From: Enterocloster clostridioformis
GTDB lineage: Bacteria; Bacillota; Clostridia; Lachnospirales; Lachnospiraceae
Direction: 5' to 3'
DNA: 64,000 nucleotides
Assembly: GCF_020297485.1 (NCBI RefSeq)
Contig: NZ_JAIWZC010000001.1
Location: forward strand, 1,860,001-1,924,000
Under the pieces are notes generated by a model. It made no database searches and had not been told where the DNA came from. It saw only the letters and a list, made by a program, of their open reading frames with translations. This document shows, one piece after another, positions 6,706 to 59,060 of this stretch. How positions within the stretch are numbered: the stretch's first letter is position 1; each line of letters opens with the position of its first letter. The position numbers were made by a program, and so were the translations under genes.

Positions 6706-7161
6706 TCATTTGCGGCGATACCGCATAAAAATCTTCTCATTAAAGCCTTTTTGCTTACCGTGTTTTTCTGGAATACGCTTAAATTCATCAAACCCAATAT
6801 TCGTATAACACTTGATGGCATTATTATTTATATCAGTAACATCAAGCACAAAATCTTGATAATTTGTAAGCAGCATACTTTCTTGAAGCATAGTTGTAGC
6901 AATGCCTTGTTTACGGTATTTTTTTCGCACTGTTACAAATTCTATGTATCCTGTTGTGATAGGATACTCAAGCTGCCCTTCAAATTCTTCTTTCAAAACA
7001 AAAGCACCGAACATTCCTTTCAAAAACCCAAAATGTCTTTTTAGAGATGCTTTTTCTACTCTCGCCGCTCTGCCGGTACAATCAGAAATTGCCAACACTT
7101 CTGCAATACATAAGGCTACGTTATTACGGTCTGTTTCTTTTGCTTTCCTTATATGCACCAT
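6706..7161 (-). CDS. GNAT-family N-acetyltransferase
   Basis: 151 residues with the GNAT fold: N-terminal IRKAKETDRNNVALCIAEVL, strand TTGYIEFVTVRKKYRKQGIA (motif A, the Q/RxxGxA acetyl-CoA pyrophosphate loop appears as RKQGIA), and C-terminal NNNAIKCYTNIGFDEFKR (motif B, typical N..A...Y...GF). It would transfer an acetyl group from acetyl-CoA to an amine; the substrate cannot be read from sequence. ATG start with GGAG a few bases upstream. Stands alone between an IS remnant and a broken flavodoxin. Confidence 0.85.
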   Translation of the reverse strand: MVHIRKAKETDRNNVALCIAEVLAISDCTGRAARVEKASLKRHFGFLKGMFGAFVLKEEFEGQLEYPITTGYIEFVTVRKKYRKQGIATTMLQESMLLTNYQDFVLDVTDINNNAIKCYTNIGFDEFKRIPEKHGKQKGFNEKIFMRYRRK

Positions 7162-7261
7162 TTTTATATGTTCTCCTCACCTTATGAAATCCCAATTTTT
7201 CCTTATTTGCAATCTCCCGACAAATGGGAAATTTCTCATCCTCTGTGACTGGAACTCGTAT

Positions 7262-7800
7262 CTATACGAACTGCATCATCCAGCGCACGGGCAGGGAAAA
7301 ATATTCCGGGTCAGTAAATTTCTTTGCTTCCTCACGGAAAAACCCGTCTCCCTTCGCAAACAATTCGCCCATCGCCTGATACGGTTTTGTGACATGCTTC
7401 TGCTTTTCATCATCCAGCATCCGGATTCCGAAATTGTCTCCTTTGACCAAACAGCCGCCATAACGAACCCCCAGATATTCCGGCAGCTTCGCCAGAAATT
7501 CCTCGCCGCAACGAAGCTGGCATCCTTCAGCAAAACCACTCAGCAAAAGAAAAGAAAGTCTTGTATGTTCATCCTTTTTCGGCAGGGTTTCCAGAAATTC
7601 CAAAAGAAGACCAGGTACACATTCCACATATAACGGAAGCGCAATCAGAATTTCCCTATTCTTTCTGTATGCCTCCTGAATTGTTTCCCATGATTGGCGA
7701 TTGGATTTTCTTTAAACCCTTTTGTAAAGGAAGCAATAATTTTCTCCGTGTTGCTATACTTTTGCACTCGAGGACTTCCATTGATGATTACAACATACAT
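7262..7800 (-). pseudogene. Flavodoxin/FMN-reductase-like gene, frame broken by a deletion
   Basis: The start at 7800 encodes MYVVIINGSPRVQKYSNTEK, the phosphate-binding loop of NADPH-dependent FMN reductase-like flavoproteins. After about 36 codons (KGFKEN) the frame changes. The rest (RQSWETIQEAYRKNREILIA, then PLYVECVPGLLLEFLETLPK to 7262) lies in another frame, so roughly 10 codons plus a frame offset have been lost. The start codon overlaps the end of the neighbouring flavoprotein gene (7788-8324), so the two were translationally coupled. The downstream half may still be made as a fragment. Confidence 0.75.
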
Positions 7801-43749: not shown

Positions 43750-43787
43750 AAAAACAACAAAATCAGGTTAAATTAGGTTTTTCAAGG
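43744..43787. terminator. Bidirectional terminator between convergent genes
   Basis: CCTTGAAAAA.C and GTTTTTCAAGG pair around a 20-nt loop with T/A-rich flanks on both strands, just at the ends of the regulator gene (plus) and the sortase gene (minus). Confidence 0.7.
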
Positions 43788-44565
43788 CAGATGCAATCTG
43801 TTTATGCTGCCAATATACGAAAATCTTCTTAGCATCTGCCTCTATTGCCAGCCGTTCCTCATTTTTCCCGGCCACGCAGGTCACCAGTGTGACCCTGGCA
43901 TCTCGGTCCGTTTTGCCATCTTCCCCCGGTTCCTCCTCTTTATCCTGCATTTCAGAGAAAAAGTCGGTCTGCGCAGAAATCCTGCGGCGGTCTGTAATAT
44001 GGCACAGGAAAATCTCCCCTTCTGCCGTGTACAGGTAAAAAGAGGAATGTTCCCTATAATATTCATTGTCCCAGTAACGCTTCAGGGAACCGAACATGGA
44101 GCCGTTTTTCATGTTATGCCCATAGAGGACCGTGTTCCCGCCCTCTGAGGGCAGACTGCTTCTGTAATCCATGAAAATACATCCGGCCCCGTTATATGCC
44201 TTGGAAAATGTCCTGTTCAGGTAATAGGAATTGTCCTCCCCCTGGGTCACAGGGTAGCTTACCGGCGTCCCCGGAATATGAATCCATGCAATGATATGGG
44301 GATTCAGCTTTTTAAGGGCCTCAAAATCAACAGCCAGCATGGGTTCCTGCTCCCCCGCAGACAGGCTGTACGGGGACCGGGATTCAGGTTCCCGGCCAGG
44401 TGCTTTGGCTGCATACCGCTGGAGCAGCCCGTACTCCTTCTCCCCTTTTCTGTATTCATACAGGGAGCGGCACAGCAGGCCGGCGGACACCAGAAAGATT
44501 CCCAGTACCACCAGTATGGACAGGGTCAGGACCGTGTGTCCCGTCCCCTGCTTTTTGTCCTTCAC
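43768..44565 (-). CDS. Class B sortase
   Basis: 265 residues. N-terminal membrane segment (TVLTLSILVVLGIFLVSAGL). Core: IIAWIHIPGTPVSYPVTQGE, DNSYYLNRTFSKAYNGAGCI FMDYR, catalytic His in TVLYGHNMKNGSMFGSL (about 148), catalytic Cys in VTLVTCVAGKNEERLAIEA (about 228) with the Arg shortly after. The sequence and FMDYR/YYLNR motifs are those of class B sortases. It overlaps the LPKTG-protein gene by 4 bp (ATGA), so this protein is the obvious substrate. Last gene of the surface operon. Confidence 0.93.
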   Translation of the reverse strand: MKDKKQGTGHTVLTLSILVVLGIFLVSAGLLCRSLYEYRKGEKEYGLLQRYAAKAPGREPESRSPYSLSAGEQEPMLAVDFEALKKLNPHIIAWIHIPGTPVSYPVTQGEDNSYYLNRTFSKAYNGAGCIFMDYRSSLPSEGGNTVLYGHNMKNGSMFGSLKRYWDNEYYREHSSFYLYTAEGEIFLCHITDRRRISAQTDFFSEMQDKEEEPGEDGKTDRDARVTLVTCVAGKNEERLAIEADAKKIFVYWQHKQIASALKNLI

Positions 44566-46214
44566 GCCTTATCCTCTTTTCTGCGCATCCTAATCCATAA
44601 GATTCCCAGTGCGGACAGGAGGAGAAAACTGACCGCGGTCATGGCTCCCAGCATAAGCAGCGGGGTGGTGTCCCCTGTTTTTGGAAGAGAAGCCAGCGGT
44701 ATCTCCGGATCAGGAATCATAACAGCCTGTGGAACCGCTTCATCATCAATGGTGGTTAAGGTGGTTACACTTCTTCGGCCTCTGCCTCTGCCACCACCGC
44801 CTCCACCGCCACCGCCGCCGCCGCCATTTTCTGAGAATGTCTGAATCATAAATTCCCAGTCAATCTTGGCCAGCTGGTCGGCATAGATGCACGCTCCCGT
44901 TACCGGGTCACAGGTAATGGAGGAATCCAGCTGCAGCTCTACCTGGATTTCCTCAGATGTCCCGCTTTTCAGATAACACAGGGGAATCAGCTCCTGGAGG
45001 TTCTCACCTTCCCCGTATCTGGCGCCTGTCACCTTTCCTTCATATAGGACACTGCCCTGGAATGTGACCTTCATGGTAATCTTTTCCAGGAGCTCGTCTT
45101 TTATCTGCTCCTGTACTCTTGGATCGATCCGCATATAGACTCTGGCGGTCTGGTTGGATGTGGTATTCTCCACCTTCAGGCGGTCTTTGTAGATGCCTCC
45201 CGGCACCATGTCCGTAAAACTCATGAACCAGTTCCCTTCCTCCTCCCCGGTCCCTGAGCGGTAGGGTACATACTCAAGCCTCTGGCTTCCCCAGTTGTAG
45301 ACCAGGGTCAGCTTCTTTTCCAGGCCGGAGGCGTCATAGACGCCGGGATCCGCCACCTGATCGGCCAGGTATCGGATCACTTCCTGGTTAAACCCGCCGG
45401 TGAACGTATGCTCCACCGCTGCCTTGGTGGCCTGCACCGTGGTGGCCTTTATATCCATGGTATATCTGCTGCTGTCATACCCGTATTTGGCATTGGTGCG
45501 GGTCACGGTAATCTGCTTGTAACCATCCTCTGTCTTCTCATAATAGGTGTCTTTTCCCGTTATAGTGTTCTCCAGAAGGGGGTTCATGGTCACGCTTTCC
45601 AAAAACACCGGCGAGTCTTCCCCCGGCTGTATCACCCCTATGTAATACAATATATAATTTCCTGTCTCCGATGGCTCCTCATCCACCAGGAGCCATTTTT
45701 CCCTGGCCTCCTCCACCTTGTCTGCATAGGGCAGATTCAGGCGCATGCCGGCATCCTGCGCCATTCCGGACCGGAGCACCATGACGGATTCTTTATTAAA
45801 TGCGGGGATTGCCGCATACTGACGCTCTCCCTGGTCTGTCACAAAGTCAGGGGGCAGCGCTTCCCCCTCAAGGGGAGGGACCGCTGTCTCATTGCCATCC
45901 TGATCCAGGACGTAAACATTTTCCCGCCGTATCCAGCTCTGGTGGATTTCCACCCTGGCAATGGCAGGCACGCCGCTCTCCAGGCTGCCGTCCTCTGCCT
46001 TCAGGCTGTTGGATACCCATACCTGCTTTTGTGTGGTTATACCTGGCTGCCAGTCATCCGGCTGGCGGAAATGCTCCTCAAGGCTGGTTTTGTACCTGGG
46101 AACCCTGTATTCATTGCCGGTCCGTATTACCTGGGACCACGCCGCCCAGGTAGTTCCCACCGATGCAGCCGCCAGAACTGCCAGGCCCAATAACATGATT
46201 TTGCCTTTTTTCAT
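44562..46214 (-). CDS. LPKTG-anchored surface protein with SipW-type signal and poly-Gly hinge
   Basis: 550 residues. The N-terminus (GLAVLAAASVGTTWAAWSQV) is a SipW-type signal peptide. Two extracellular domains follow, the second with conserved MVPGGIYKDRLKVENTTSNQ typical of camelysin/BsaA-like proteins. Residues near 465-484 are twelve consecutive Gly then RGRGRR, a flexible basic hinge. The C-terminus is a sortase signal: LASLPKTGDTTP, hydrophobic LLMLGAMTAVSFLLLSALGI, and positive tail RMRRKEDKA. Anchored to peptidoglycan by the sortase gene with which it overlaps. Role in a biofilm or surface fibre is inferred from the operon. Confidence 0.88.
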   Translation of the reverse strand: MKKGKIMLLGLAVLAAASVGTTWAAWSQVIRTGNEYRVPRYKTSLEEHFRQPDDWQPGITTQKQVWVSNSLKAEDGSLESGVPAIARVEIHQSWIRRENVYVLDQDGNETAVPPLEGEALPPDFVTDQGERQYAAIPAFNKESVMVLRSGMAQDAGMRLNLPYADKVEEAREKWLLVDEEPSETGNYILYYIGVIQPGEDSPVFLESVTMNPLLENTITGKDTYYEKTEDGYKQITVTRTNAKYGYDSSRYTMDIKATTVQATKAAVEHTFTGGFNQEVIRYLADQVADPGVYDASGLEKKLTLVYNWGSQRLEYVPYRSGTGEEEGNWFMSFTDMVPGGIYKDRLKVENTTSNQTARVYMRIDPRVQEQIKDELLEKITMKVTFQGSVLYEGKVTGARYGEGENLQELIPLCYLKSGTSEEIQVELQLDSSITCDPVTGACIYADQLAKIDWEFMIQTFSENGGGGGGGGGGGGRGRGRRSVTTLTTIDDEAVPQAVMIPDPEIPLASLPKTGDTTPLLMLGAMTAVSFLLLSALGILWIRMRRKEDKA

Positions 46215-46264
46215 AACATCAATCTCCTGTCCAAACGGATTACAGCTCTGCTTCCAACAGGCGT

Positions 46265-46762
46265 TTATGCCTTTTCCTCCCGTTTCTTTCCCGGGCAGAT
46301 AAAATCAAGTAATATCCCAATCACCAGGATTCCTCCCATGCTCCCAATTGCCTGGGGTGTCCTGCCATAGGTGACAAAGTATCCGGCATAGGGAATCTTC
46401 ACATCAGACGCCCTGCCTGCCACGCGGTCATATGAAACCGGGTTGGGATCCGCAGTCTCATTGGCATCTCCTTTAGTGATAAAATCACTGCTCAGCTCCT
46501 GCTTTTCCACTACCCTGTGGGTGACCAGCGAGCCATCCTCACCTGCATGGAAGGTGATGGGGTCTCCCTCCTGAATCTGCTCAAAGGAGGCCGCTTTATA
46601 GTAAATTACGCTTCCGACAGGAAAGGTGGGCTCCATACTTCCGCTGAGCACCACCACCGGCCGGTAACCGGCCAGCATGGGCGCTGCAATCAGAAGGTAT
46701 CCCGCAATGCACAGATACACGGGCCATGATAGGATATTAAACAATTGTTTCAGAACGTTCAT
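46265..46762 (-). CDS. sipW: Signal peptidase I, SipW (ER) type
   Basis: 165 residues. The nucleophile Ser lies in VVVLSGSMEPTFPVGSVIYY. The general base is His (SLVTHRVVEKQ) in place of Lys, the mark of SipW/ER-type signal peptidases. Membrane segments at both ends (SWPVYLCIAGYLLIAAPML and IGSMGGILVIGILLDFI). It should cleave the SipW-type signals of the BsaA-like proteins encoded around it. Located between those genes and the LPKTG protein gene in one operon. Confidence 0.93.
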   Translation of the reverse strand: MNVLKQLFNILSWPVYLCIAGYLLIAAPMLAGYRPVVVLSGSMEPTFPVGSVIYYKAASFEQIQEGDPITFHAGEDGSLVTHRVVEKQELSSDFITKGDANETADPNPVSYDRVAGRASDVKIPYAGYFVTYGRTPQAIGSMGGILVIGILLDFICPGKKREEKA

Positions 46763-46777
46763 TCATCGGCCTCTGTA

Positions 46778-47713
46778 TTATGGTGCAACCGTTTTATTCT
46801 CAAGATTTACGTTATCCTCTGCATTAACCTGGACATTGGTCAACTTAGTGATATCGAAATCTTGCCAGGAATCGGTCACTGCATCCTTTGTGGCCTGGAC
46901 AAACTCAGAGGTAACGGTCAGTGTGTAGTTGGAGTCTCCGTAGCCCTTCCTATCGCTGTCTAAATTGGATTCGGATTTGCGGAACAGGCTCTCTCCCTCC
47001 GGAATATTTATGACAGCTGCCAGGTCGCGTATATCTGTAAGGCCGTCATCATTCTCATCATTAACCTTGGTCCAGTCAATCAGTGTCCAGGCATCGGTAT
47101 TATGCAGATCCGGCTGTGTTGCCGCAACGGCATAGTACTCTTTTGTCTCATAGCAGCCAAGGTCAATATCTGTAGCCATGGTCAGTCCTTCCAGCAGGTG
47201 GGTGGTGCCGGACTTATCTGAGCCCTTTTTCTCCAGAACGCCGTTCCAGTACCAGTATCCGTCCCCTCCATCAATCCAGCCATCACCAGTCAGGATGTTC
47301 TTATGCACCACGGTGCCGTCCGATTCCGGTGTCAGGCCATCGGTATCATTATCCTGGGCTGCATCAAAGATTCCGCCGGCATAGGTTCCGTTGTTAAACA
47401 GGTCTGAATCACTCAAAATGGTTTTATAGGAATCCGCTGCTTTCTTGTAGGACCAGTTTTCTTTCATGCTTATCCTGACAAGGACGGGATAATCTCCGGT
47501 ATTCTCCGCCCCTACATTCTTATCCCACTTGGCGCCCGGCTTTAAATCCTCCGTTGGCGGTGTGTAATCCTCCACCAGCTGGGTGGTATATTTGCCCGTG
47601 CTCAGCGGGTTATCCAGGGACGCTGTCTGTGAATAGTACGCAAATGTTCCTCCCACCAGCGCTAATGCTCCCAGCCCGATTCCTGCTGCTGCTTTCTTAT
47701 TTAACTTTTTCAT
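46778..47713 (-). CDS. BsaA-like SipW-dependent surface protein 1
   Basis: 311 residues. Signal AAAGIGLGALALVGGTFAYY, then QTASLDNPLSTGKYTTQLVE, the typical start of BsaA/camelysin (TasA-like) biofilm proteins. A KWDKNVGAENTGDYPVLVRI motif (jelly-roll strand) and a C-terminal YGDSNYTLTVTSEFVQATKD block are repeated in its paralogues. Immediately before sipW. It lacks a sortase signal, so it may polymerise into fibres as TasA does or be retained by partners. Confidence 0.85.
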   Translation of the reverse strand: MKKLNKKAAAGIGLGALALVGGTFAYYSQTASLDNPLSTGKYTTQLVEDYTPPTEDLKPGAKWDKNVGAENTGDYPVLVRISMKENWSYKKAADSYKTILSDSDLFNNGTYAGGIFDAAQDNDTDGLTPESDGTVVHKNILTGDGWIDGGDGYWYWNGVLEKKGSDKSGTTHLLEGLTMATDIDLGCYETKEYYAVAATQPDLHNTDAWTLIDWTKVNDENDDGLTDIRDLAAVINIPEGESLFRKSESNLDSDRKGYGDSNYTLTVTSEFVQATKDAVTDSWQDFDITKLTNVQVNAEDNVNLENKTVAP

Positions 47714-47829
47714 GTCTTTTCCTCCTGCTTTTTCATATTATAATGCTTTCATTTTGTTATATTGGTCCGTCCATCTAAAAACACAGACGGTAATAACCTG
47801 TTTGATTATTCTCCTTTAGGCTGCTGAAC
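47714..47829. other. Gap between BsaA-like genes
   Basis: 116 bp containing the AGGAGGAAAAGAC ribosome site of the gene at 46778-47713; no terminator, so transcription likely continues. Confidence 0.5.
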
Positions 47830-48795
47830 TTACTTCTGGACCTCTGATTCGCTGATCAGCTTCCAATCACATCCAAGCTGCCTAAAATCAAATACACCCC
47901 CGCCTCCAAATACCGTGTTAACGGCCTGGTCCGTTGCCTGTACGGTCTGGGCTGCCACCACCAGGGTATAATCAGCATCACTGTACCCGGCCAGCCTGGC
48001 ATCTCTGAGCTTAGTGACTGATTTCATAAAGGTTATCTGGCTTCCATCCGCTTTCAGGCGCTCATTCATTTCCCTGGTGGAAATGTAATCATATCCAAGA
48101 GGGCTGGACGCATTGCTGGCCGTGGCGAATTCCACCCAGTCGCTGCTCTCACTTTCCGGTCTTTGACCCGTGGTGGCATAATACCGGGTCTCCTTGTAGG
48201 AACCCATATCCACATTTTCCGCCAGGGCCACTTCGTCAAGGAGCTTGGTTGTCTCCGCAATTTCTTGGCTGCCATCCTCTTTCTCTACCGCGCCGGGAAG
48301 GACATACATATAGTAATAATATCCATCCGCCGGATTATATACCCAGCCGCCGTCCGGCATCATGCTTTTAAATACCACTGAGTCATCCGCGTCAGGATTG
48401 GCAATTCCGTCTTCCGGGTCACCCTGGTAAACATTCTCAAATGCATTGTTGGCATTGGATGGGCTTCCAATGGCAGCCGGCCGCTCCTTTTCCTGAGAGG
48501 TGTCTGTAAAATAAAATTCCTCTTGTCCTCTGACCCACTTTTCCTGAAATTTCACCCGCACCACCACGGGAAGGGTGCCTGTGTTGCGGATTGTCACATC
48601 CTTATTCACACTGGTTCCAGGCCCCCAGTTCTCGCCCTCCGAAGGCTTAAACTCTTCAACCAGTTCCGTATCATATTTCCCTGTATCAAATATGTTGGCG
48701 GCTGTCAGAGTCTGGTTAAAGTAAGCAAATGTCCCGCCGATCCCGGCCACTGCCAGCATTGCGGCCACCGCTATCACTTTTCCATTTATTCTCAT
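47830..48795 (-). CDS. BsaA-like SipW-dependent surface protein 2
   Basis: About 321 residues from the ATG at 48795, which follows AGGAGGACAGGAGA. Signal GKVIAVAAMLAVAGIGGTFA followed by YFNQTLTAANIFDTGKYDTE LVEEFKP. Contains VNKDVTIRNTGTLPVVVRVK and the late LAGYSDADYTLVVAAQTVQA block shared with protein 1 (46778). Likely an extracellular beta-sandwich fibre subunit. Four-member paralogue cluster with the genes at 46778, 48813 and 49569. Confidence 0.85.
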   Translation of the reverse strand: MRINGKVIAVAAMLAVAGIGGTFAYFNQTLTAANIFDTGKYDTELVEEFKPSEGENWGPGTSVNKDVTIRNTGTLPVVVRVKFQEKWVRGQEEFYFTDTSQEKERPAAIGSPSNANNAFENVYQGDPEDGIANPDADDSVVFKSMMPDGGWVYNPADGYYYYMYVLPGAVEKEDGSQEIAETTKLLDEVALAENVDMGSYKETRYYATTGQRPESESSDWVEFATASNASSPLGYDYISTREMNERLKADGSQITFMKSVTKLRDARLAGYSDADYTLVVAAQTVQATDQAVNTVFGGGGVFDFRQLGCDWKLISESEVQK

Positions 48796-48812
48796 TCTCC
48801 TGTCCTCCTGTA

Positions 48813-49556
48813 TCATTCACCGGCCCGGCTGCCCTGACTCCATGTCAGTACGCCGCTGCTGTCTTCCTGAACCACCATATTCCACTGTGACTGTACCCCC
48901 GGTGCCGAATCATGTTCCTCAACAGGAACCGCCTCTGCATGGAAGGTCAGTTTATAAATCTTATCGCTGTAATCCACGTCATGCCGGTCATTTGACACTT
49001 CATCGCTCAGGCTGATGCTCTCAAGGATACAGTCCGTGGTTTCCCCTGCCGGGAGGACCTGTTTATAATACCGGTAGCTCTTTCCGTTCTCATCCGTGTA
49101 TGACTTTGACCAGAACGCAGTCTCCATGTTCATATAATCTACATTTCCCTCTTCCTGGCCGGAATCGGTCCAGACTCCCGGATTCCAATGTTTGATCACA
49201 TGATCCGTATCGTAGCCGGCCTCCTTTTCAAGGATAACAGGCGGGCTGCTCCCCTGTCCCTTTTGGTACCAGTTCTCCTGTGGAGGTACTTCAACACGCA
49301 GGAACAGGTCCATTTTACCTGTGTTTTGGAACGAAACTTTTTTAATCACTGTCTCTCCGGGCAGGAACGAGCTTTCCGGGTCAAAGCTTTCCACCATGGC
49401 CGCCCCGCTGTGGGAAGTTCCCAGGGGATTGGCCAGGGTCAGCACATCATTGTAATATGCCAATGTGACTGCAAATGACAGGAGCAATATAACCAGTATC
49501 AGGAGACCGGCTGTCTTTTTGTTTTTCAGCCATGTATGAATCTCTAATCGTTTCAA
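48813..49556 (-). CDS. BsaA-like SipW-dependent surface protein 3
   Basis: About 247 residues; TTG at 49556 is 8 bp after GGAGG. Signal KTAGLLILVILLLSFAVTLA then YYNDVLTLANPLGTSHSGAA MVESFDP, as in the other members. Strand motif VIKKVSFQNTGKMDLFLRVE. Ends with a helical/strand block NDRHDVDYSDKIYKLTFHAE. Ends 18 bp before the start of protein 2. Confidence 0.82.
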   Translation of the reverse strand: MKRLEIHTWLKNKKTAGLLILVILLLSFAVTLAYYNDVLTLANPLGTSHSGAAMVESFDPESSFLPGETVIKKVSFQNTGKMDLFLRVEVPPQENWYQKGQGSSPPVILEKEAGYDTDHVIKHWNPGVWTDSGQEEGNVDYMNMETAFWSKSYTDENGKSYRYYKQVLPAGETTDCILESISLSDEVSNDRHDVDYSDKIYKLTFHAEAVPVEEHDSAPGVQSQWNMVVQEDSSGVLTWSQGSRAGE

Positions 49557-49568
49557 AACAACCACCTC

Positions 49569-50228
49569 CTAATTTTTTCCGGAATCAGAATTCCAGTTAA
49601 TACTGCATCCATATTTATCGCCGTCCCAGTTATCCGGCGTCACTGAAATGTCCCTGTCAAAAAGCCGCTGCACAGCCTTCCTGCTGACATTCCAGTCATC
49701 GCTGGACTGCACGATTTCCATTGTGAAATGGAATTGATACTCCGCATTTTGATACCGCTGATCCTCTATCCCTGACATATCTATAAAATCCACGCCGCGG
49801 ACCAGCTTTTCCGTACTGCGGTCCTGGATGCCTGATACGGAACCGGGAAGCACTTTTTTGTAGTAATACCATCCATCCTCCCCGCTTTCCCAATTGCCGT
49901 CCAATGAAAGGCTGGGTACAGCCGCAGGCAGAGACCGGCCGGATGCATCCACTATATGATTAGGGAGCACCGTGCCATCCTGTGCAACCCATGACTGTGC
50001 AAATGCAACTCTTAAAAATACATCTGCCTCCCCATTATTTGTAAAAGAAACCTCCTTCGCCCCCTGGTCCAGGTTTTCTGTTACTCCCCCTTCTACCACA
50101 GGCGTCTTTATGGGATTTTCCAGCTGCATGGAGTGGATGACCGTGGCGCCTGTTACTCCGGCTGCAATGGATACGGATATCAGCACGATTATTGGCAGCA
50201 GCTTGGATAAGACCTTTCTTTTATCCAT
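49569..50228 (-). CDS. BsaA-like SipW-dependent surface protein 4
   Basis: About 219 residues; ATG at 50228 with AAAGGAG about 9 bp upstream. Signal LLPIIVLISVSIAAGVTGAT, then a TasA-like sandwich (GAKEVSFTNNGEADVFLRVA, DGWYYYKKVLPGSVSGIQDR, NAEYQFHFTMEIVQSSDDWN). First small gene after the giant adhesin; the adhesin stop lies at 50221, so the two genes overlap by about 8 bp and are probably coupled. Confidence 0.82.
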   Translation of the reverse strand: MDKRKVLSKLLPIIVLISVSIAAGVTGATVIHSMQLENPIKTPVVEGGVTENLDQGAKEVSFTNNGEADVFLRVAFAQSWVAQDGTVLPNHIVDASGRSLPAAVPSLSLDGNWESGEDGWYYYKKVLPGSVSGIQDRSTEKLVRGVDFIDMSGIEDQRYQNAEYQFHFTMEIVQSSDDWNVSRKAVQRLFDRDISVTPDNWDGDKYGCSINWNSDSGKN

Positions 50229-53200
50229 AAAGATCATCTCCTTTCTCCAGTTTTCTCTGGCCGCGCGCTACACCTCTGTCTTCAATAAACGCCATGATGC
50301 AGTCCGAGGTAAAGGCCGATGCCATATACTGAGGATTGTCACTTCCATGATATTCTGTAAATGGGTTCTCCGGCCTGAAATCCGTTCCCTCCCCATTTGT
50401 AAATCCCTTTACATTGGTGACTGATGCGGTGTGATGGAAATAGCTCTCATGATCAGGGGTGTTTGTAAGAATGACCAGGATATCGTCACCTGGTTTCACT
50501 GTAACCTTATCCCCGTTCTCAGCTCCTGAGAGCGCGTCTGCCGGTTGGCTTTCCATACGTGACATGGTGTATTCCATGGGTACGATCTCCGCAATGGAAA
50601 AGATCTGGCCTTCCTTGGGAGGAATCACAAGGATTGCCCCGCTTTCCTCTCCATTTCCAAGAGCAGTCTGTGTATAGACAGCTCCCTTGCTGTCCAGGAC
50701 CTGTATCACAAACTTGTAGGCAGAATCAATGGGTTCATTTTCAAGGCCGTTCTGTTCCACTGTCTTTTTGATCCTCAGCTTTGCCGCCAAAAGGGTATTG
50801 GTTATTTTAAACGGATTGGCGGATGTACCCGTACCGCTGGAATCGTAGGATGCTGTGTAGGTGTATCCGGTGGACAGTACTGCCATACTGCCATCCTCTA
50901 TGGGCTGGCCCGCCTGGTCCAGTTCTCTCACCGTGTAAACATATGGCGGGGAGCTTCCATCGGCTTTTACAGGCAGGTCTTTCCAGCCTGCCGTCCATTG
51001 GTTGGCTTCACTGAGTTTTACAGGTTCATCAAAGGCCGCCCCATTCTGATACAGCCGGACCTCCAATATCTCAGGCCGCGTATGGTAGGCATTTTCATAA
51101 TCCACCCATACTTTTTTCACTGTCAGGTCTTTCTGATTATAAGTATTGGTTATCACAGAATGGTCGCTGCTGTAAGTGACAATATATTGCCCCTCCCCAA
51201 TCCGCACCGTGCTTCCGGCTTCCACCTTATGACCGGAGGAATCGACCTCATAGGGAACATAGTTAATCTTTGTCCCTCCGGAGTCATACCCCGGCAGGTT
51301 CTGCCATACGCCGGACCAGTTATTGGAGCTGTCCAGTGTGATGATATCACCTGTTCTTGTGCTCCCATCCTTAAACAATCCCACCTGGACAGACTCCTCT
51401 CCGGCACTGCCAACCCACTGTTTCCTCACATTGATATCCGTGATCCGTGTATTCGTAATAGTCATCCCATTGATGCTTGATGCATAACCAACAATGTTGC
51501 CGATTTCCTCTACGGTATAAACATGCTCCTCATTTGAATTTACTTCTTTATATTTGGGCAGGTTATCCCACGTATACCTCCAGCCGTTGGATGCCTCCAG
51601 CCTGACCGCACTACCAAAAGAAGCGCCATTTTGTTTCAGCTGGACATAGATATATTCAGGCCGTTTCTTATCCTCATTGTTTCCATCCAGCCACAGCTTC
51701 CGGACCGTGCGGGAAACCGTCTCGGATTCCGGGGTTGGGATGGATGTGACGCTTGGGAGTGTGAATTTCATGTAACAGCAGGAACCGGTTCCCCCTCTCT
51801 CTATAAAGAAGACCGACATGGTATGTTTCTGGTTTTTATCCCTTAGAAGGCCCTTGTTCTGCATCCATGACTTCAAATCCACATAGGCGCCTTCCGCGGA
51901 ATGGATTCCTCCCAGATCAACGTCACTTACCAGATTACCGTCCACATACAGCCAGAAATCATCATCTCCCCTGAAATAATAGTCCATAGGCCCTGTGTAA
52001 TCTCCCAGGACAAACTCAAAGTCATAGCGCATTCCGAAAAACCAGTTGTGGGGAATCCCCTCTTTGTTCACGTCCTCATCATTTTGAGGAAACCCGTAAT
52101 GGTCATAGCCAAACAGAGGGTCCCTGTTTTTTCCCTCAACCGCATTGTCGTAACCGACATTGTCCAAAGGCCAGAAAAGATTGGAATAAAGTTTCTTGGT
52201 TTTGTTCCAGTTGTCACATGTATATACAATCTGATCCAGGTCTTTCAAAAGTGTTTTTCCCGAACTGTCATATACGGACTTCAGCGTATAAGTATCCCCC
52301 TGGCGTTCAAACCCCAGCTGATAGTTTGGCAGGTATTTCTTGGCATAATAGGCCACCTTTTTACCGTCCTTATATGTTTCACTGGTGATGATATCCCAGG
52401 TTGCAAAAAGGCCCGGGTCCTGATAATTAAACTTAATCGTATTGTCCGCGGCCAGGGTTCCTTCGGGAATCCCTGTCACCACGGAACCTGCCTTGTTTGG
52501 CACCCCTGTATAACCATGGCGTATCTGTGCCTGGCCGTTCCCTCCGATTCCCACACCGATGCGGGTGGAGCTGCTTCTCAGGGAGGTATTGTTCATTCCC
52601 ACCTTGCTGGTGTTAAGGGTTCCATGGTTTCCATCCGTGGTGGTTCCCTCCACCGTAACATTATAGTCGTGAAAACCTGTATATCCCTTAATGGTGCCTG
52701 ATGTGGGCACATAGTTAATCTTTATCTTATTGTTTGTGGCAGCGAGATAAATCTTCTGGTCTGCTGCAGTTTCCGTAAATGTCTGTCCATTGGGGTAATT
52801 TGCATTGGTTATGGTCACGCTTTTTACCGTATAATTACCTCCCAGGGCGACCTTACTCCAGTTGGAGACCGCAATGGAGTAATCCAACCCTGTGCCAGAG
52901 CCATTGGGCAGGGTCAGGTTATCATCGCTGTATATCTTTACCTCCTGCTTTGCATACGTGCTTCCGCTTTGGGCTCCCGGATACAGTCTGTTCCCGGAGA
53001 CAGATTCCTTTATTTTACCGTTACTGTCAAAGGTCATCTTATCCAGCTGGGCCCAGTGCTCCACTGTCACAGGCACTTCTTTTACCTCCGGCACATTGAC
53101 CACAATGTATATGGAAAAGTGGTCTGTTTCCATCACTACAGTTCCGTCTGATGCCACCGTGCTGTTCATCTCATTTGCCACAGCCTGCGTTTCATCCAGA

Positions 53201-55269
53201 TGGTAGACTTTGATTTCCTCTCCTCCGGATTGGAGCCGTTCACTGGAATCCGCCGGTTCCTCCTGCCGGGGCAGCACCTGGGCAGCCGCCGGTACATCTG
53301 CCTGGGCGTTGGACGCGGCAGCAGGATTACGTTTTTCCAGCTCCAGGTTTTTAAAAGCTACATTGATGGGCCCTACCGGTTCAACCTCAGCTCCGTCCGC
53401 GTAGAGCTTAATATCCAGGGCTTTGTAGGATTGGATGGAAAGCCCCTCTTCCTGAGACTTCTTCACCAATGCCTCATCCACCTGGGCCATCTGATCCTGC
53501 TCTACCTCAGAGACGCTCACTGCCAGCTGGTCTGCCTCAGGGAAGGAATCCACCGGCCCGCTGACCGTGACGGCAGCATCCCCAATCCGGCCTTCCAGGG
53601 AGATTTCCCCATCACCTGTTACAATCAGTGAAAAACCCTGGGTGGATTTGCAGGTCTTTCCTTTTATCCTGCTCTCCTGGGTGATTTTTCCAAAGTAGAT
53701 TCCAGGATTCACATCCCCGGACACGCGGAACGAACAAATCAGCATATTCTCCCTAACATCATCCACCATTGCCTTTCTCACCTTAAAGCTGTTTAACTTG
53801 GCGTTATACATTTCAATCCTGTAATTTACTTTCCCAAGGTCTACCGTATAATCTTCGCTTTCCTCCTCATCTGCATCTTTCTGGGTTTCCCTGGTATCTT
53901 CCGCAGTCGTGCCTTTATGTTCATTTGAAGAATCTTCTGCTTTTGATTCAATTACAACCACAGATTCAGATTCCATTTCTTCACTTTGGTCCTGATCTGT
54001 CACCTCTGCCTCTGTTGAATCCTCTTGAACGGGTTCTGATGACATGGTTGGCGCTGCTTCTGTGTCTGCTGCTTCTGTTGGTTCTGCCTCGGCTGATGCC
54101 TGGATTGTGGTTTCCTCTGAATCGGCCGGCTCTGTCTCCGTGGCTGCCTGGGTCTGGTTTTCCCCCGTATCAGCGGGTGACGATTCAGCAGATACCTGGG
54201 TCTCAGTTTCCTCCGGATTGGCAGGCGCTTCCTCTGCCGCTGTCGGCAATGTTTCTATGGAAGTCTGGATCTGACTTTCCCCCGTATCAGCGGGTTCCTG
54301 GGGTTCCGTTTCCTGTGGTATGCCCGCGCCTTCTTCCGGCGTCTCTGGTGCCGGCTTTGAAGGTATATCCGGCCGTGCCTGTGACGGTGTGGCAGGCCGT
54401 GCTTCCGATGGCGTAGCCAGTGGAACGGCCGGGGTAGCCTCTGACGGTGTAGCAGGTGCAATATCTGTCTCATCCTTAAAGGAATCTTCCAGGATTGCAT
54501 CAAAATCAAACATGGATGCATGGATTCCCATAGTGACCATTTCACCTGTTCCTATGCGGTTTCCATCCTGAAATTCAACAGGATCTATGTTCAGATAATT
54601 GACTGTATATAAAAAATTCTCACGGACGCGTATTCGTTTTTCTTCGCCTTTTCCGTCAAACTGGAATTTTACCTGCTGGCTTCGTACCCCTTCAATATCT
54701 TCATCAATGACAAATGTAAAACGTACTGAATATATCTGTCCGGGAACCAGTTCAATCCCCTCAATCCGTTCCAGTCCCTCTGTTCCATCATCCGCTATGC
54801 CACTGTCCAATGCACTGTCATCTGCCATACCATTGTCCGGTGCACCGTCATCCACTATACCGGTATCAAACGCATCCTCTCCTGATTCCTCCAAAAGAGA
54901 AAACTCCGCCGAGCCTTCCTGAATCCCCTTTGCGCTATATGTCAGTGAGCCGTCTGTGACCACGGTTCCTGTCTCATTCTTAAGGTGTACATCCAGGGTA
55001 ACCAGACCTCCTGGACGGTAATCCCCCTCCTCTGAAAGAATGCTGATTACAACATCATCCTTTTTTGAATTTTTAAAGCTGGCATTGCTGACCGTGGCCT
55101 TGGAAAATTCGCCAAGCTCCGACAAATCCGTCTCCTCCCGGTAGAACCTGTCATCATATTCTTCGGCAAATGCAATACCGGAATTGCCCAGTATCAGTAT
55201 GCTCACAATGGTAAACGCCAAAAAACCAGACGTTATTCTCTTCCAGCCCGCTTCCAATCTCCGATTCAT
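50221..55269 (-). CDS. Giant surface adhesin with fibro-slime and Cna-B domains
   Basis: 1682 residues; second ATG (55269) is better spaced from GGAGG. Signal peptide 1-38 (...GNSGIAFAEEYDD). About 130-165: acidic DDG-type repeats. About 270-300: ATPSEA/ATPSQA-type proline repeats, then a Thr/Glu/Ser-rich stalk to about 470. About 1060-1165: a fibro-slime/PA14-like domain (PHNWFFGMRYDFEFVLGDYT, YYFRGDDDFWLYVDGNLVSD, MSVFFIERGGTGSCCYMKF). About 1183-1274, 1280-1374 and 1379-1494: three Cna-B repeats (VRKLWLDGNNEDKKRPEYIY, VYTVEEIG, TVKKVWVDYENAYHTRPEIL). About 1497-1605: a DUF7601-like repeat. There is no LPXTG. It heads the surface operon. Confidence 0.9.
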   Translation of the reverse strand: MNRRLEAGWKRITSGFLAFTIVSILILGNSGIAFAEEYDDRFYREETDLSELGEFSKATVSNASFKNSKKDDVVISILSEEGDYRPGGLVTLDVHLKNETGTVVTDGSLTYSAKGIQEGSAEFSLLEESGEDAFDTGIVDDGAPDNGMADDSALDSGIADDGTEGLERIEGIELVPGQIYSVRFTFVIDEDIEGVRSQQVKFQFDGKGEEKRIRVRENFLYTVNYLNIDPVEFQDGNRIGTGEMVTMGIHASMFDFDAILEDSFKDETDIAPATPSEATPAVPLATPSEARPATPSQARPDIPSKPAPETPEEGAGIPQETEPQEPADTGESQIQTSIETLPTAAEEAPANPEETETQVSAESSPADTGENQTQAATETEPADSEETTIQASAEAEPTEAADTEAAPTMSSEPVQEDSTEAEVTDQDQSEEMESESVVVIESKAEDSSNEHKGTTAEDTRETQKDADEEESEDYTVDLGKVNYRIEMYNAKLNSFKVRKAMVDDVRENMLICSFRVSGDVNPGIYFGKITQESRIKGKTCKSTQGFSLIVTGDGEISLEGRIGDAAVTVSGPVDSFPEADQLAVSVSEVEQDQMAQVDEALVKKSQEEGLSIQSYKALDIKLYADGAEVEPVGPINVAFKNLELEKRNPAAASNAQADVPAAAQVLPRQEEPADSSERLQSGGEEIKVYHLDETQAVANEMNSTVASDGTVVMETDHFSIYIVVNVPEVKEVPVTVEHWAQLDKMTFDSNGKIKESVSGNRLYPGAQSGSTYAKQEVKIYSDDNLTLPNGSGTGLDYSIAVSNWSKVALGGNYTVKSVTITNANYPNGQTFTETAADQKIYLAATNNKIKINYVPTSGTIKGYTGFHDYNVTVEGTTTDGNHGTLNTSKVGMNNTSLRSSSTRIGVGIGGNGQAQIRHGYTGVPNKAGSVVTGIPEGTLAADNTIKFNYQDPGLFATWDIITSETYKDGKKVAYYAKKYLPNYQLGFERQGDTYTLKSVYDSSGKTLLKDLDQIVYTCDNWNKTKKLYSNLFWPLDNVGYDNAVEGKNRDPLFGYDHYGFPQNDEDVNKEGIPHNWFFGMRYDFEFVLGDYTGPMDYYFRGDDDFWLYVDGNLVSDVDLGGIHSAEGAYVDLKSWMQNKGLLRDKNQKHTMSVFFIERGGTGSCCYMKFTLPSVTSIPTPESETVSRTVRKLWLDGNNEDKKRPEYIYVQLKQNGASFGSAVRLEASNGWRYTWDNLPKYKEVNSNEEHVYTVEEIGNIVGYASSINGMTITNTRITDINVRKQWVGSAGEESVQVGLFKDGSTRTGDIITLDSSNNWSGVWQNLPGYDSGGTKINYVPYEVDSSGHKVEAGSTVRIGEGQYIVTYSSDHSVITNTYNQKDLTVKKVWVDYENAYHTRPEILEVRLYQNGAAFDEPVKLSEANQWTAGWKDLPVKADGSSPPYVYTVRELDQAGQPIEDGSMAVLSTGYTYTASYDSSGTGTSANPFKITNTLLAAKLRIKKTVEQNGLENEPIDSAYKFVIQVLDSKGAVYTQTALGNGEESGAILVIPPKEGQIFSIAEIVPMEYTMSRMESQPADALSGAENGDKVTVKPGDDILVILTNTPDHESYFHHTASVTNVKGFTNGEGTDFRPENPFTEYHGSDNPQYMASAFTSDCIMAFIEDRGVARGQRKLEKGDDLYG

Positions 55270-55414
55270 CATTTACCTCCTGTATGTTCTGCAAACTCTT
55301 ATATTTTTCTTAATCCAGGGCATCGTTCCTTAATGTTAATTTTATCAAAAGGGGTATCCTGCATCCTGCCACATCCGGTGCATTTTCCCATTTTTCTATG
55401 AATGACACAAAAAT

Positions 55415-55729: not shown

Positions 55730-56981
55730 CTATTCCAACATAGTTTTCTCCAGTTCCTGGGTCATGGTCACGTGATACCACAGCTCTCCCCGGCTGCCTG
55801 GCACCTTATTGTAGGCGGATTCAATCCGCTGAAATATGATACTGCAGGATTCCTTATTAATCTTGGTGAGAAGGAGGATATAGTGGCGGCTTCCGTACCG
55901 TGTATAAGCATCCCCTTTTCTCAGGGAACTGCCGATTGCGTCTTTCAGCAGCTCCATCTGATATATACGGTTATCCTGCCCTCTTCTTTTTCCCTGCTGT
56001 CCCAAGGTGAGGAACATCAGCACCGGCTTCAGGTCATGGCGCTCCCTGGCCCGAAGCAGCAGACGGCAGTAGTCAACAAAGCTTGGATAGGTGCAGTAAT
56101 ACGCTCCCGTGATATTGCCTTTCTCAAATATGGTCCCGATTATACCCCCCCCCCCCGACTTCCATATAATACTGACTCGTTATGTGCCATGCCTGAACGC
56201 TCCGTTTGTGTTTCCGTTCAAACAATTCCAGGTCTTCAAAACACTTCTGCATCTCTTCCATTGGGGGATTCCCCATCTCCCTTGCGTAGAGTTCCATGGT
56301 CCTGTTATAAATATTAATGGCTTCCTCATACCTGTACATTTCCAGGCAGCACCGTATCTGCTCTGTCTGCCAATTCTCAAAGGGATAAATCGCAGATGCC
56401 CTGGTGTAAAGTTTAAGCAGGTTCTGGTAGTCATGATTGGATTTAAACGCCTGCTCCAGCTCCCGGATTGTCTCTATATAAAGGCGCTTAAATGATTCGC
56501 TTTTCTCATAGAACCACATGTCGGACTGGTTCATGGGCAGCAGCTCTCCGTAATAGCTTTGATTAGCCTGAAGGAACAGCGCGGCCCGTTCCCGTCCCCG
56601 GCTTCCTTCCGCCTTATGTACCAGTGTTTCAAAATAAGCCGCATCCAGTTCAATCTTAAAACTGCTCTTCCACCTGCATACCCCATCCTGTATTACCACA
56701 TATTCCTCCTCCGGAAGGCCGGAAGCCGCCAGCTGTCCCTTGAGCCGGTAACACAGATTGTTCAGGTTTTTATTGCGGTTGCCTGCGTCAGTCCCCTCGC
56801 TCCACCCATAGAGAAAATCCATAATCTCGCTTTTTGCAATTCCCTGCTCTCCTGATAGCAGCAGCATCTGGAGAAGACGTACGGATTTTGCATTGCCTGT
56901 TTTATGAAACAGTATGTGGTCTTCCCCATACCGCATTGTAAATTTACCCAGCATCTGTACACGCAGAATCTTACCGCCCAT
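55730..56981 (-). CDS. SARP/BTAD-type regulator interrupted by a G12 tract (phase-variable candidate)
   Basis: The start ATG at 56981 follows GGAGG by 8 bp. Residues 1-100 form an OmpR-like DNA-binding domain (ILRVQMLGKFTMRYGEDHIL, AKSVRLLQMLLLSGEQGIAK) and about 100-255 the helical bacterial transcriptional activation domain (AAYFETLVHKAEGSRGRERA, NYQ..KLYTRASAIYPFENW-like). At residue 276 twelve G (56156-56145) encode GGGG, after which the frame ends at 56124 (285 residues). With 11 or 14 G it would read on (GTIFEKGNITGAYYCTYPSF, KGDAYTRYGSRHYILLL) to 55730, giving about 416 residues, the tail resembling a degenerate nucleotide-cyclase fold. 40 bp after the gene at 57046; likely activator of the surface operon. 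Confidence 0.85.
56145..56156 (-). repeat. Homopolymer tract of 12 G (minus strand)
   Basis: Twelve consecutive C on the plus strand inside the SARP-type gene, by far the longest homopolymer G/C run seen in the window. Confidence 0.95.
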
Positions 56982-57045
56982 GCGGTCCGCCTCCTTTATC
57001 ATCATATGCCGGAGCTTATTGTACTGAAAGCTCCCCGCCCCTGGT

Positions 57046-57552
57046 TTACAGCTGTATCATGCTAATCATGCGCATCAGTTCCAGGGCACTTCTGAAATTT
57101 ACCACCTTACCCTTGGTAATCTTTCCTCTGATGCTTCCCTGTAAACTGGAGAACTGTCTGTATTTCACATAGACAATCAGCACTTCCCTGGCTTTTAACG
57201 CCTGCTTAAAGGGAATCTGGTCCATGGTGTACGTCAGGTTGCTCCTGTCAGCCTGCGGATGATGGGAACTGGCCTCCCTGTAACGCCTCTCCGTCTCCAG
57301 ATTCAGGAAACGCGGATCCGTGGTTGCATGGGGCATACCAACCCAGTTGCACATTTCATCCAGCTTCAGCACCAAATCCCCCACTCCCCTAAACCATATG
57401 GGGTCCTTAAGGTAACAGCTGTAAATTTCCCCGCACAGCTCCCCCTCTTCGGTTCCCTGTACACAGACCAGCATGGTGCTGGACCGGTCCGATACCACCA
57501 GTTCTTCAATTCGTTTCATGGCCTCTTCGTCCTGTATAATCTCACTGCCCAT
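57046..57552 (-). CDS. Hypothetical regulator-like protein downstream of the switch
   Basis: 168 residues, not recognised. A fold of alternating strands and helices is suggested (SSTMLVCVQGTEEGELCGEI, DPIWFRGVGDLVLKLDEMCN, REVLIVYVKYRQFSSLQGSI), ending in KVVNFRSALELMRMISMIQL. No signal peptide or membrane segment. It is the first gene after the invertible segment (ATG 39 bp from the left inverted repeat) and is followed after 40 bp by the SARP-type regulator, so both are presumably transcribed from the switch promoter when it faces left. Function could be regulatory; no motif proves it. Confidence 0.65.
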   Translation of the reverse strand: MGSEIIQDEEAMKRIEELVVSDRSSTMLVCVQGTEEGELCGEIYSCYLKDPIWFRGVGDLVLKLDEMCNWVGMPHATTDPRFLNLETERRYREASSHHPQADRSNLTYTMDQIPFKQALKAREVLIVYVKYRQFSSLQGSIRGKITKGKVVNFRSALELMRMISMIQL

Positions 57553-57590
57553 CTCTTCTTCTCCCTCACTTAAAGTACCTTGGCTTCTAT

Positions 57591-57620
57591 TTACAACAGA
57601 ATTCCTCTTTTGTTGTAAAC
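57591..57620. repeat. Left inverted repeat of the invertible segment
   Basis: 30 bp, perfect inverted copy of 57828-57857. It is itself a near-dyad: TTACAACA and TGTTGTAA arms around a 12-bp centre, the layout of a tyrosine recombinase crossover site. Confidence 0.95.
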
Positions 57621-57685
57621 TTTCCCATTGTTACTGTCTCCCCATCCATTTAATCCTTTGAATCCTCTGAGGGAAAAATAAAATA

Positions 57686-57740
57686 GGCACAATAAATAAG
57701 CTGGAAAAAAATTGATTTAAACCAGCTTATTTATTGTGCC
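57686..57740 (-). terminator. Terminator inside the invertible segment
   Basis: Perfect 19-bp arms (GGCACAATAAATAAGCTGG and its complement) with a 17-nt loop. On the minus strand TATTTTATTTTT follows; on the plus strand only TTAATTTC. As drawn it blocks leftward read-through from the recombinase gene towards the regulators. Confidence 0.85.
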
Positions 57741-57777
57741 TTAATTTCAAAAAACGTATGAGACAATCACATTACTA

Positions 57778-57806
57778 TGGCAAACACAAAAAATATGTAG
57801 TATAAT
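57778..57806 (+). promoter_or_regulatory. Promoter within the invertible segment
   Basis: Perfect TATAAT at 57801-57806; the -35 position (57778-57783, TGGCAA, 17-bp spacer) is weak, so an activator may be needed. In this orientation it would produce RNA antisense to the 3' end of the recombinase gene. Confidence 0.6.
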
Positions 57807-57827
57807 AGCTCCAAACAATATCCTTCT

Positions 57828-57857
57828 GTTTACAACAAAAGAGGAATTCTGTTGTAA
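57828..57857. repeat. Right inverted repeat of the invertible segment
   Basis: Perfect inverted copy of 57591-57620. It also encodes the last nine codons of the recombinase (HYNRIPLLL) and its stop. Confidence 0.95.
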
Positions 57858-58708
57858 TGTTCTATAAGCAGCCCCATTCGTTCCAACTGTCTGACATGAT
57901 TCTCTCCGCTTTCCATTGTATAGATACGTGTGGTATTGACACTGCTGTGGCCCAGTATGTCTGACAGCCGCAGCAGATCCTTTTCCTGGCTGTAGTATAC
58001 CCTTGCAAAGAGGTGCCGTAGATTGTGGGGAAATATCTTTTGCGGATTAATTCCTGCCTTTTTTCCGATTTTTTTCATCTCACGCCATATATTGCTGCGG
58101 TCCATGGGCTTTCCGCTGCGTGTCACAAAGATGGGGCCGGACTGTACTTTTCTTTTCTCCGCATACTCCTTAAGAAGCCTGCACAGCTGCCGGGTGAGGA
58201 AGATAGTCCTGACCTTTCCTTTGCAGTCCACCTGGACAATCTGTTTTTCCACTGCGGTAACCGTAATATAGGAAAGCTCCGATATGCGGATTCCTGTGGA
58301 GCACAGGGTCTGGATTAAAAGACATAACCGTTCATTCCCATCTTTTTGCGCGGCCTCAACCAGCTGCAGGTATTCCTCCCGTTTCAGTTCCTTTTGTCCG
58401 GAACAAAATACCTGCTGTTTTACTTTTATAAACTTGACCAGACAGTCATTCCATCCCAGATACCGAAAAAATCCATTGACAGCAGCCAGGGCGCCGTTGA
58501 CCGTCACCGGCGACAGATTTCTCCTAAGTGTTTCCTTCCAGACCATGACCCTCTCTTTGGTAACTGCCGCCCCATCCATAAACTGTTCAAGCTGGTTCAG
58601 ATAATATCTGTATTTATAGATGGTTCCCTGGCTCATCTCATTATGCTGCAGCCAGAGACAGTATTCTTCAATCGTTTTGCCTGCAATTGCTCGTTTCAAC
58701 ATGTTCAT
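57830..58708 (-). CDS. Tyrosine recombinase, candidate invertase of the adjacent switch
   Basis: 292 residues. N-terminal SAM-like DNA-binding domain (CLWLQHNEMSQGTIYKYRYY, SPVTVNGALAAVNGFFRYLG). Catalytic residues all present: Arg in CSTGIRISELSYITV, Lys in VDCKGKVRTIFLT, HxxR in FPHNLRHLFARVYYS, His in ILGHSSVNTT, Tyr in TRIYTMESGE. It is of XerC-like length with no phage or ICE accessory genes beside it. The gene's 3' end coincides with the right inverted repeat; since the repeats are identical, inversion leaves its C-terminus unchanged. AGGAGGAATGAAC ribosome site with ATG 58708 or 58702. Confidence 0.93.
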   Translation of the reverse strand: MNMLKRAIAGKTIEEYCLWLQHNEMSQGTIYKYRYYLNQLEQFMDGAAVTKERVMVWKETLRRNLSPVTVNGALAAVNGFFRYLGWNDCLVKFIKVKQQVFCSGQKELKREEYLQLVEAAQKDGNERLCLLIQTLCSTGIRISELSYITVTAVEKQIVQVDCKGKVRTIFLTRQLCRLLKEYAEKRKVQSGPIFVTRSGKPMDRSNIWREMKKIGKKAGINPQKIFPHNLRHLFARVYYSQEKDLLRLSDILGHSSVNTTRIYTMESGENHVRQLERMGLLIEHYNRIPLLL

Positions 58709-58752
58709 TCCTCCTTGATTGTTTTTGTTTCTTCCTTTGCCGGGAAATATAG

Positions 58753-58781
58753 AAAAGGAAGCCCGTATAAGGCTTCCTTTT
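58753..58781. terminator. Hairpin in the recombinase leader
   Basis: AAAAGGAAGCC and GGCTTCCTTTT (11-bp arms, 7-nt loop) lie 45 bp upstream of the recombinase start; on the minus strand TTTTCTAT follows. If transcription starts upstream (a TATAAT-like box lies on the minus strand at 58809-58804) it would act as an attenuator of recombinase expression; otherwise it insulates the locus. Confidence 0.6.
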
Positions 58782-58958
58782 AGCTTGGTTTTTTATTTCG
58801 TAAATTATACTTGCATTCCTGTTCTTTACCGTGCAAAAAAATATATAGCATTTTAATGTCAAAAAAAACCAAGCAGCGAACTCCCTTTGCAAAGGAAACA
58901 CGGTAGAAGGAGAATGCCGGACAGATGCCCGGCATATACAAATTGGTAAGGTTCCATA
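58782..58958. other. A/T-rich leader region
   Basis: Holds the minus-strand -10-like box at 58809-58804 and a small GCCGG/CCCGGC hairpin near 58915-58935. No gene. Confidence 0.4.
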
Positions 58959-59060
58959 TCATAATGCTTTATCTTTCAGATTGGTATATCCGTACGCGTT
59001 CACCAGCGCCTCCAGCCTCTTGCACTGCTTGCAGAACAGGCAGTCCCTGTAAGTGAGAAG
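58959..59060 (-). pseudogene. 3' fragment of a Cys-rich protein gene
   Basis: A minus-strand frame reads CLFCKQCKRLEALVNAYGYT NLKDKAL then stop, with two Cys pairs as in a zinc-binding C-terminus. No start is present and the frame closes upstream. It probably marks the end of a lost gene. Confidence 0.45.

Follow-up and report, generated by a model that had tools for sequence, protein, structure and literature searches.

A probable invertible promoter beside its tyrosine recombinase gene, upstream of a surface-fibre locus in Enterocloster clostridioformis

In the genome of Enterocloster clostridioformis, a long perfect inverted repeat lies next to a tyrosine recombinase gene and upstream of genes for surface-type proteins, which raises the question of whether the DNA enclosed by the repeat is a promoter that can be turned around. 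We analyzed this locus in a stretch of 64,000 nucleotides of contig NZ_JAIWZC010000001.1 (positions 1,860,001 to 1,924,000, forward strand), hereafter the window, in which the coordinates of the locus are given. The original prediction, made from the sequence alone, had proposed an invertible promoter upstream of a surface-structure locus. Promoter inversion by tyrosine recombinases is an established mode of switching. According to our analysis, the window very likely (probability about 0.9) carries a self-contained invertible promoter that would be flipped by the adjacent recombinase. This reading, which follows the prediction, is backed by reversed cores in relatives, a paralogous assembly that holds both orientations, the matching of the two arms within each locus, the promoter-to-arm spacing and the specificity of the sites.

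The two arms of the repeat, each a putative recombination site, lie at 57591..57620 (distal, upstream of a 168-aa ORF) and 57828..57857 (proximal). As predicted, they are 30 nt long and 100% complementary (30/30), with a spacing of 207 nt. The pair tops a longest-first list of inverted repeats between 54000 and 62000 (best 25 of 36 pairs), and a search of the 5.87-Mb genome at up to 3 mismatches did not find the arm sequence anywhere besides the pair itself. The 207-bp core enclosed by the arms (57621..57827) is represented in a single orientation in the genome assembly. By the direction of its promoter, which points toward the recombinase, this is the OFF state.

The proposed cis-acting invertase is encoded on the minus strand at 57830..58708. 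The gene is complete, as had been claimed, and specifies an intact XerA/XerC/XerD-like tyrosine recombinase of 292 aa with a Phage_integrase domain (1.2e-29) and an N-terminal SAM-like domain; its R, K, HxxR, H and Y residues, matched by eye, are presumably those of the tyrosine-recombinase motif. Models for tyrosine-type DNA invertases matched the protein at E 1e-7 only, far under the model cut-offs. The gene ends within the proximal arm, which includes its final eight codons and TAA stop, so that inversion would keep the protein and change the sequence after the stop. The overlap of the site with the stop codon had been overlooked in the original prediction. The second contig of the same genome has two more recombinases of this family (G000:C2:127224-128093 and C2:388797-389621), each with its own repeat pair; the match at C2:388797-389621 contains one internal stop.

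To compare this arrangement among relatives, we collected 25 relative loci from genome contigs by protein search. In addition, 17 genomes of the genus gave 42 recombinase matches at E 1e-60 or better, of which 40 besides the window were taken with their flanks. Removal of four duplicates left 62 distinct loci, window included. An inverted-repeat pair is present at the 3' end of the recombinase gene in 50 of them, with arms of 18-74 nt (at most 2 mismatches) and cores of 118-330 bp (median 216). In 40 of these 50 loci, the proximal arm extends into the coding sequence (counted with its stop); the arm reaches the stop codon in 22 and encloses all of it in 20. Among the 12 loci where a pair was not found, four contigs stop 28-113 bp past the gene, with one site visible, two stop 507-643 bp past the gene, with a site visible, and three have an assembly gap there. 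We infer that contig breaks at the site are the expected result of mixed orientations. The last three (L020, L101, and L116) have no repeat pair, although the sequence runs on beyond the gene. In L101, we observed a G13 tract between the recombinase stop and a site-like palindrome, 57 bp past the stop.

A plasmid collection contained five distant relatives of the recombinase, and a repeat pair follows the recombinase in 4/4 examined. Two records of Subdoligranulum variabile in this collection are different loci (one 92-bp match) and hence gave no orientation comparison. Several loci (L114, L113, L117, L121, L015, and L154) have two or three arm copies on one side; L114 has three, 42 bp apart. 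Such extra copies could permit more than two states.

Both orientations of the core occur in nature among these relatives, while the window locus itself was found in one. When cores were compared with each other, 14 of the 46 pairs with a whole or partial match were mainly reversed, as for L004 and L084 (80% over 142 bp) or L118 and L120 (84% over 150 bp); three pairs in which a minor match to the opposite strand falls at or close to the hairpin were not included in the 14 on that account. The loci behind the reversed pairs, L004, L094, L104, and L118, were called ON on a separate basis, their promoter score. L004, whose recombinase shows 69% identity, has a relative of the 168-aa ORF downstream and a promoter aimed at that ORF. 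The nearest thing to direct evidence for a mixed population is the assembly of L100 (G003:C2:381468-397304), a paralogue from what we take to be E. citroniae. It holds both core orientations, in the order recombinase end and core one way, gap, same recombinase end and core the other way. In the gapped relative L119, the core has the same orientation on either side of the gap, and L115, also gapped, is uninformative on orientation. The two nearest orthologues, L001 and L002, have their core in the same orientation as the window.

We compared the putative crossover region in 12 hand-picked loci of the TACAAC...GTTGTA type (window, L084, L004, L003, L005, L007, L008, and L087-L091), leaving out L001 and L002 as identical to the window. 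At the five central positions (12-16), the two arms differ in 0/12 loci, whereas comparisons between loci show differences there in 17-67% of cases. In total, the 12 loci have 8 mismatches between their own two arms, compared to a mean of 37.9 and a minimum of 17 in 20,000 trials of random re-pairing, a contrast that kinship among the loci somewhat inflates. Without exchange or constraint the arms would drift apart, yet within each locus they still match. Position 12 is an example from six close loci: both arms have T in the window, L001 and L002, both have C in L084 and L004, and both have A in L003.

The same sites were searched for across the 17 genomes, where all 23 exact matches of the site motif (23/23) fall at 12 loci of the window recombinase's family. 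The other places listed are the same sites read backwards and two strays with 2 mismatches. Since exact sites stand solely beside family recombinases, the pattern suggests that the recombinase acts in cis; action on dissimilar unlinked sites would be compatible with it. A blastn search against 50,697 phage records gave no match, nor did a search for the exact site pattern in IMG/VR.

Inside the core, the predicted TATAAT box is present at 57801-57806 on the plus strand, pointing away from the regulators. Together with ATGGCA, a weak -35 box 18 bp upstream, it forms a candidate promoter (57777..57806, plus strand) that faces the proximal arm at 21 bp and, as now oriented, would produce antisense transcription of the 3' end of the recombinase gene. 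A generic promoter scan of 57400-59000 found three promoter-like sites against a shuffle mean of 3.0, thus no excess, and the promoter case therefore depends on the comparison with relatives. On sequence only, what marks an outward-facing promoter is the distance from the TATAAT to the faced arm, which is conserved in the family, the generic scan being at chance. Using a simple sigma-70 score on the 50 cores, we obtained a clear promoter orientation in 44 and none in 6. In 37 of the 44 oriented cores, 18-50 bp separate the -10 box from the faced arm, and in 7 the distance falls outside this range; shuffled cores reach a mean of 16% and a maximum of 35%, the range having been picked after the distances had been inspected. 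The distance is 20-24 bp in 11 oriented cores and 39-47 bp in 20. Of the 37 promoters within range, 28 point at the recombinase (OFF) and 9 in the other direction (ON). The best promoter scores have a mean of 13.2 in cores and 10.0 in shuffles, with half of the cores scoring above the 95th percentile of the shuffles. L002 has an ambiguous score, though alignment gives its core the same orientation as that of the window.

The core also contains a hairpin with a T-rich tail (57673..57741, minus strand), a probable terminator between the recombinase and the regulators in the present orientation. Its stem has 20 pairs (57685-57704/57722-57741) around a 17-nt loop, and the minus strand folds at -32.6 kcal/mol against a shuffle mean of -7.0 (z -12.2). 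The tail, ATTTTATTTTTC, belongs to the minus strand and lies on the regulators' side; the side had been correctly predicted, and the stem length, given as 19 bp, had to be corrected. The terminator search of the generic scan (57400-59000, loop limit 8) did not list the 57685-57741 hairpin. As a family-wide feature the terminator was rejected: a strong hairpin is present only in the window's clade, and a crude finder detected stems of at least 12 in 4 of the 50 cores.

The first gene that the promoter would drive in the ON orientation is the 168-aa ORF (57046..57552, minus strand), a member of an unnamed conserved family. It has no Pfam match above the cut-off, and searching the PDB with its predicted structure (mean pLDDT 79) gave no hit at E 0.001 or below. 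Two similar strand-helix halves are visible in the predicted model, and the protein carries a C-terminal QG..G..T....FRSALELMRM motif. In the clostridioforme copy of L002 (around 7150-7262), this ORF is mostly deleted, with its first and last codons remaining.

Behind this ORF lies the gene of a BTAD transcriptional activator. Its 5' part (56124..57005, minus strand) ends shortly past a run of 12 C at 56145..56156, and 55730..56146 (minus strand), which is read in a different frame, has a GGDEF-like match below the Pfam cut-off. Since the frame is broken at the C12 tract, 55730-56146 is the 3' part of the same regulator gene. The genes that had been placed at 57552 to 55730 are thus present as the 168-aa ORF and a regulator, but the latter is one frame-broken gene. 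A tandem duplication (55348-55618/55629-55899, spacing 281-282 bp) covers the 3' end of the BTAD gene; its two longer blocks are 91% identical, and a block of 51 nt is 78% identical.

The next large gene downstream (50221..55272, minus strand) encodes a 1683-aa protein with three Cna_B stretches. Beyond it, genes of the surface-fibre type (43768..50237, minus strand) encode three BsaA-family SipW-dependent proteins, one with an LPXTG-type anchor, a SipW-like signal peptidase, a class B sortase and two ORFs without a Pfam match. The surface-type proteins, the peptidase and the sortase bear out the predicted surface-structure locus. Both the Cna_B gene and the fibre genes may be under the control of the switch, which the regulator would relay to them. 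We also scanned 114 cargo proteins, namely 113 downstream proteins of relatives and the Cna_B protein of the window, against Pfam (E 1e-5). Wzz was found in 10 and CpsB_CapC in 9, so members of the family precede capsule or surface-protein genes; BTAD was found in just 4, and a regulator is therefore not a general cargo.

The C12 tract, which reads G12 in the sense of the gene, is the sole run of G or C of at least 8 within the window and a candidate slipped-strand switch; the frame break that it causes had escaped the original prediction. In L001 and L002, the BTAD gene runs through in one frame (423 aa) and lacks such a tract. Tract forms were drawn, at the protein level, from 12 of 120 database proteins listed. 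Among those with 95-100% identity to the query, P0050, P0053, P0055, and P0056 are full-length and bear the tract, P0052 and P0057 are full-length without it, and P0051 and P0054 are truncated forms that diverge at the tract. At this level, a long coding tract is thus found in the BTAD gene with both frames in the population. The proteins derive from assemblies, with clustering at 90%. Full-length forms with the tract are in small clusters of 1-2 members each, versus 372 for P0051 and 195 for P0052, so that single cases could be due to sequencing error.

G/C tracts of at least 10 number 132 in the approximately 59.5 Mb (sizes rounded) of 13 genomes. The switch neighbourhoods (476 kb) contain 9 of them versus 1.14 expected (P about 3e-6), an approximately eightfold enrichment measured against whole genomes, while surface loci may be tract-rich in general. 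With the window left out, 8 tracts were found versus 1.08 expected (P about 2e-5); those of L113, L117, and L121 have similar positions within related operons and do not count as independent. G012 has an abnormally high number of G10 tracts (804/1063 overlapping matches), which is probably an assembly artefact.

In the mechanism that we propose, the recombinase of 57830-58708 would recombine the two 30-bp repeats and thereby flip the 207-bp core. In the present OFF state, the promoter would point toward the recombinase gene, and antisense into it, and the 20-bp hairpin would halt transcripts from the recombinase side ahead of the regulators. In the ON state, which inversion would create, the -10 box would sit within the core at 21 bp from the distal arm. 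From there the promoter would drive the 168-aa ORF and the gene of the BTAD activator, and the activator in turn would increase expression of the downstream SipW/TasA-type fibre and Cna_B surface genes. A further proposal, to which we would give somewhat less than even odds, is that the switch has two locks. Inversion would set transcription of the BTAD gene, the poly-G tract would set whether the regulator is full length, and the fibres would fire when both locks are open; the pairing of inverton and poly-G tract would be recurrent in the genus. We place the tract, just as tentatively, in a linker between the BTAD part and the GGDEF-like part. Since the site is the recombinase's own 3' end, orientation would also feed back on recombinase expression. 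The truncated BTAD regulator may be an activator released from its sensor part.

The feedback on the recombinase could also be the main effect, inversion serving to tune the recombinase itself, through antisense transcription or an altered 3' end in the OFF state, with control of the targets secondary. The overlap of the proximal arm with the coding sequence (40/50) and with the whole stop (20/50) speaks for such a role, as does the aim of the OFF promoter into the recombinase 3' end, and in E. coli a phase-variable 3' end of fimE alters the fimE level, according to the available sections of PMC2784873. We consider it rather unlikely as the principal function, given that the surface-protein or capsule genes on the distal side in many relatives fit target control; the two effects may both operate. 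The single orientation found here and shared by the two nearest orthologues, together with the broken frame of the regulator, would agree with an ancestral switch that is locked OFF in this lineage, the element being a relic with a dead recombinase or dead sites and the fibres being off or otherwise driven. Such a relic is improbable: the recombinase is intact, the arms are identical at 30/30, and position 12 varies across six close loci yet is equal in both arms, whereas locked arms should drift.

Long perfect inverted repeats with an enclosed hairpin can mark small mobile elements or attenuators, and the repeats of the window have this appearance. A reading of them as the ends of a small mobile cassette, or as an RNA or terminator structure, in place of a recombination site, is already disfavoured and has very little probability. 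Exact sites occur in the 17 genomes only beside the recombinase family, the two strays having 2 mismatches; the phage records and IMG/VR gave no match in the searches described above; the core of L004 is reversed in front of the same downstream ORF; and the promoter-to-arm spacing is conserved.

An invertible promoter flipped by the adjacent recombinase has several counterparts. In a 2025 read-mapping study of the hCom2 community, the available text of which ties inverton group 139 to invertase group 35 (PMC11892184), this group comprises 33 invertons, 32 of them from Clostridia and nearly all near a tyrosine-type recombinase. One named example there has 26-bp arms and a 205-bp core, and orientation shifts across passages were derived from metagenomes. 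The sizes of arms and core agree with those of the window element, which is likened to the group by size and setting, not by motif, and probably belongs to this type. The same text makes no mention of a recombinase stop-codon overlap or of G tracts for group 139, and the terms bolteae, clostridioforme, citroniae, Lachnospiraceae, and SARP are absent from the main text of the study. The original prediction knew of no description of this switch, which holds for the window locus itself, for which none was found, but not for the general type, invertons of Clostridia being on record in the portion of PMC11892184 cited here. Among the literature matches listed, as judged by titles and abstract openings, none dealt with this locus or a BTAD/SARP inverton and none with the pairing of an inverton and a poly-G tract in Clostridia. 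No report among the matches listed, with subscription papers mostly outside their scope, described a site that is the recombinase's own stop region across a family.

The Cdi/RecV switches of C. difficile, as described in parts of PMC2784873 and PMC5903667, resemble the window element in their short inverted repeats around approximately 200 bp, their tyrosine recombinase and their surface targets. However, these sources describe RecV as serving several unlinked switches, whereas the window recombinase adjoins its switch; only Cdi7 of R20291 is reported there to have a recombinase nearby. The cwpV promoter is placed outside the invertible part, while that of the window is inside, and RecV's own sites differ in sequence (same sections of PMC2784873 and PMC5903667). 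Like fimS of E. coli (FimB/FimE), as covered in excerpts of PMC2784873, the window has a promoter in an invertible segment beside a tyrosine recombinase gene, and the orientation-dependent end of the recombinase transcript described there has a likeness here. In contrast to fimS, the window has one recombinase, the site is embedded in the recombinase's own 3' end, and regulator genes, not a pilin gene, lie directly behind the switch. The tract resembles homopolymer phase variation in its location in a coding gene and in the intact and truncated forms among near-identical proteins; its particular setting here is a regulator gene placed straight after an invertible promoter. For the MBA of Ureaplasma, PMC3047005 names both inversion and slipped-strand mispairing, and the layering as such may therefore not be new.

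The surprising part of our proposal is the double lock, the switch itself being a variant of known systems. If the switch works as proposed, the TasA/SipW-type fibre genes of a gut commensal would be under a genetic coin toss, and the pairing with poly-G suggests two independent clocks on one regulator. The family would be a compact one of recombinases and sites, traceable by sequence, in which each recombinase has its own site at its 3' end. Since its members precede genes for capsules and surface proteins, ordinary metagenomes could reveal the orientation, which could then be tied to colonisation, phage or immune pressure.
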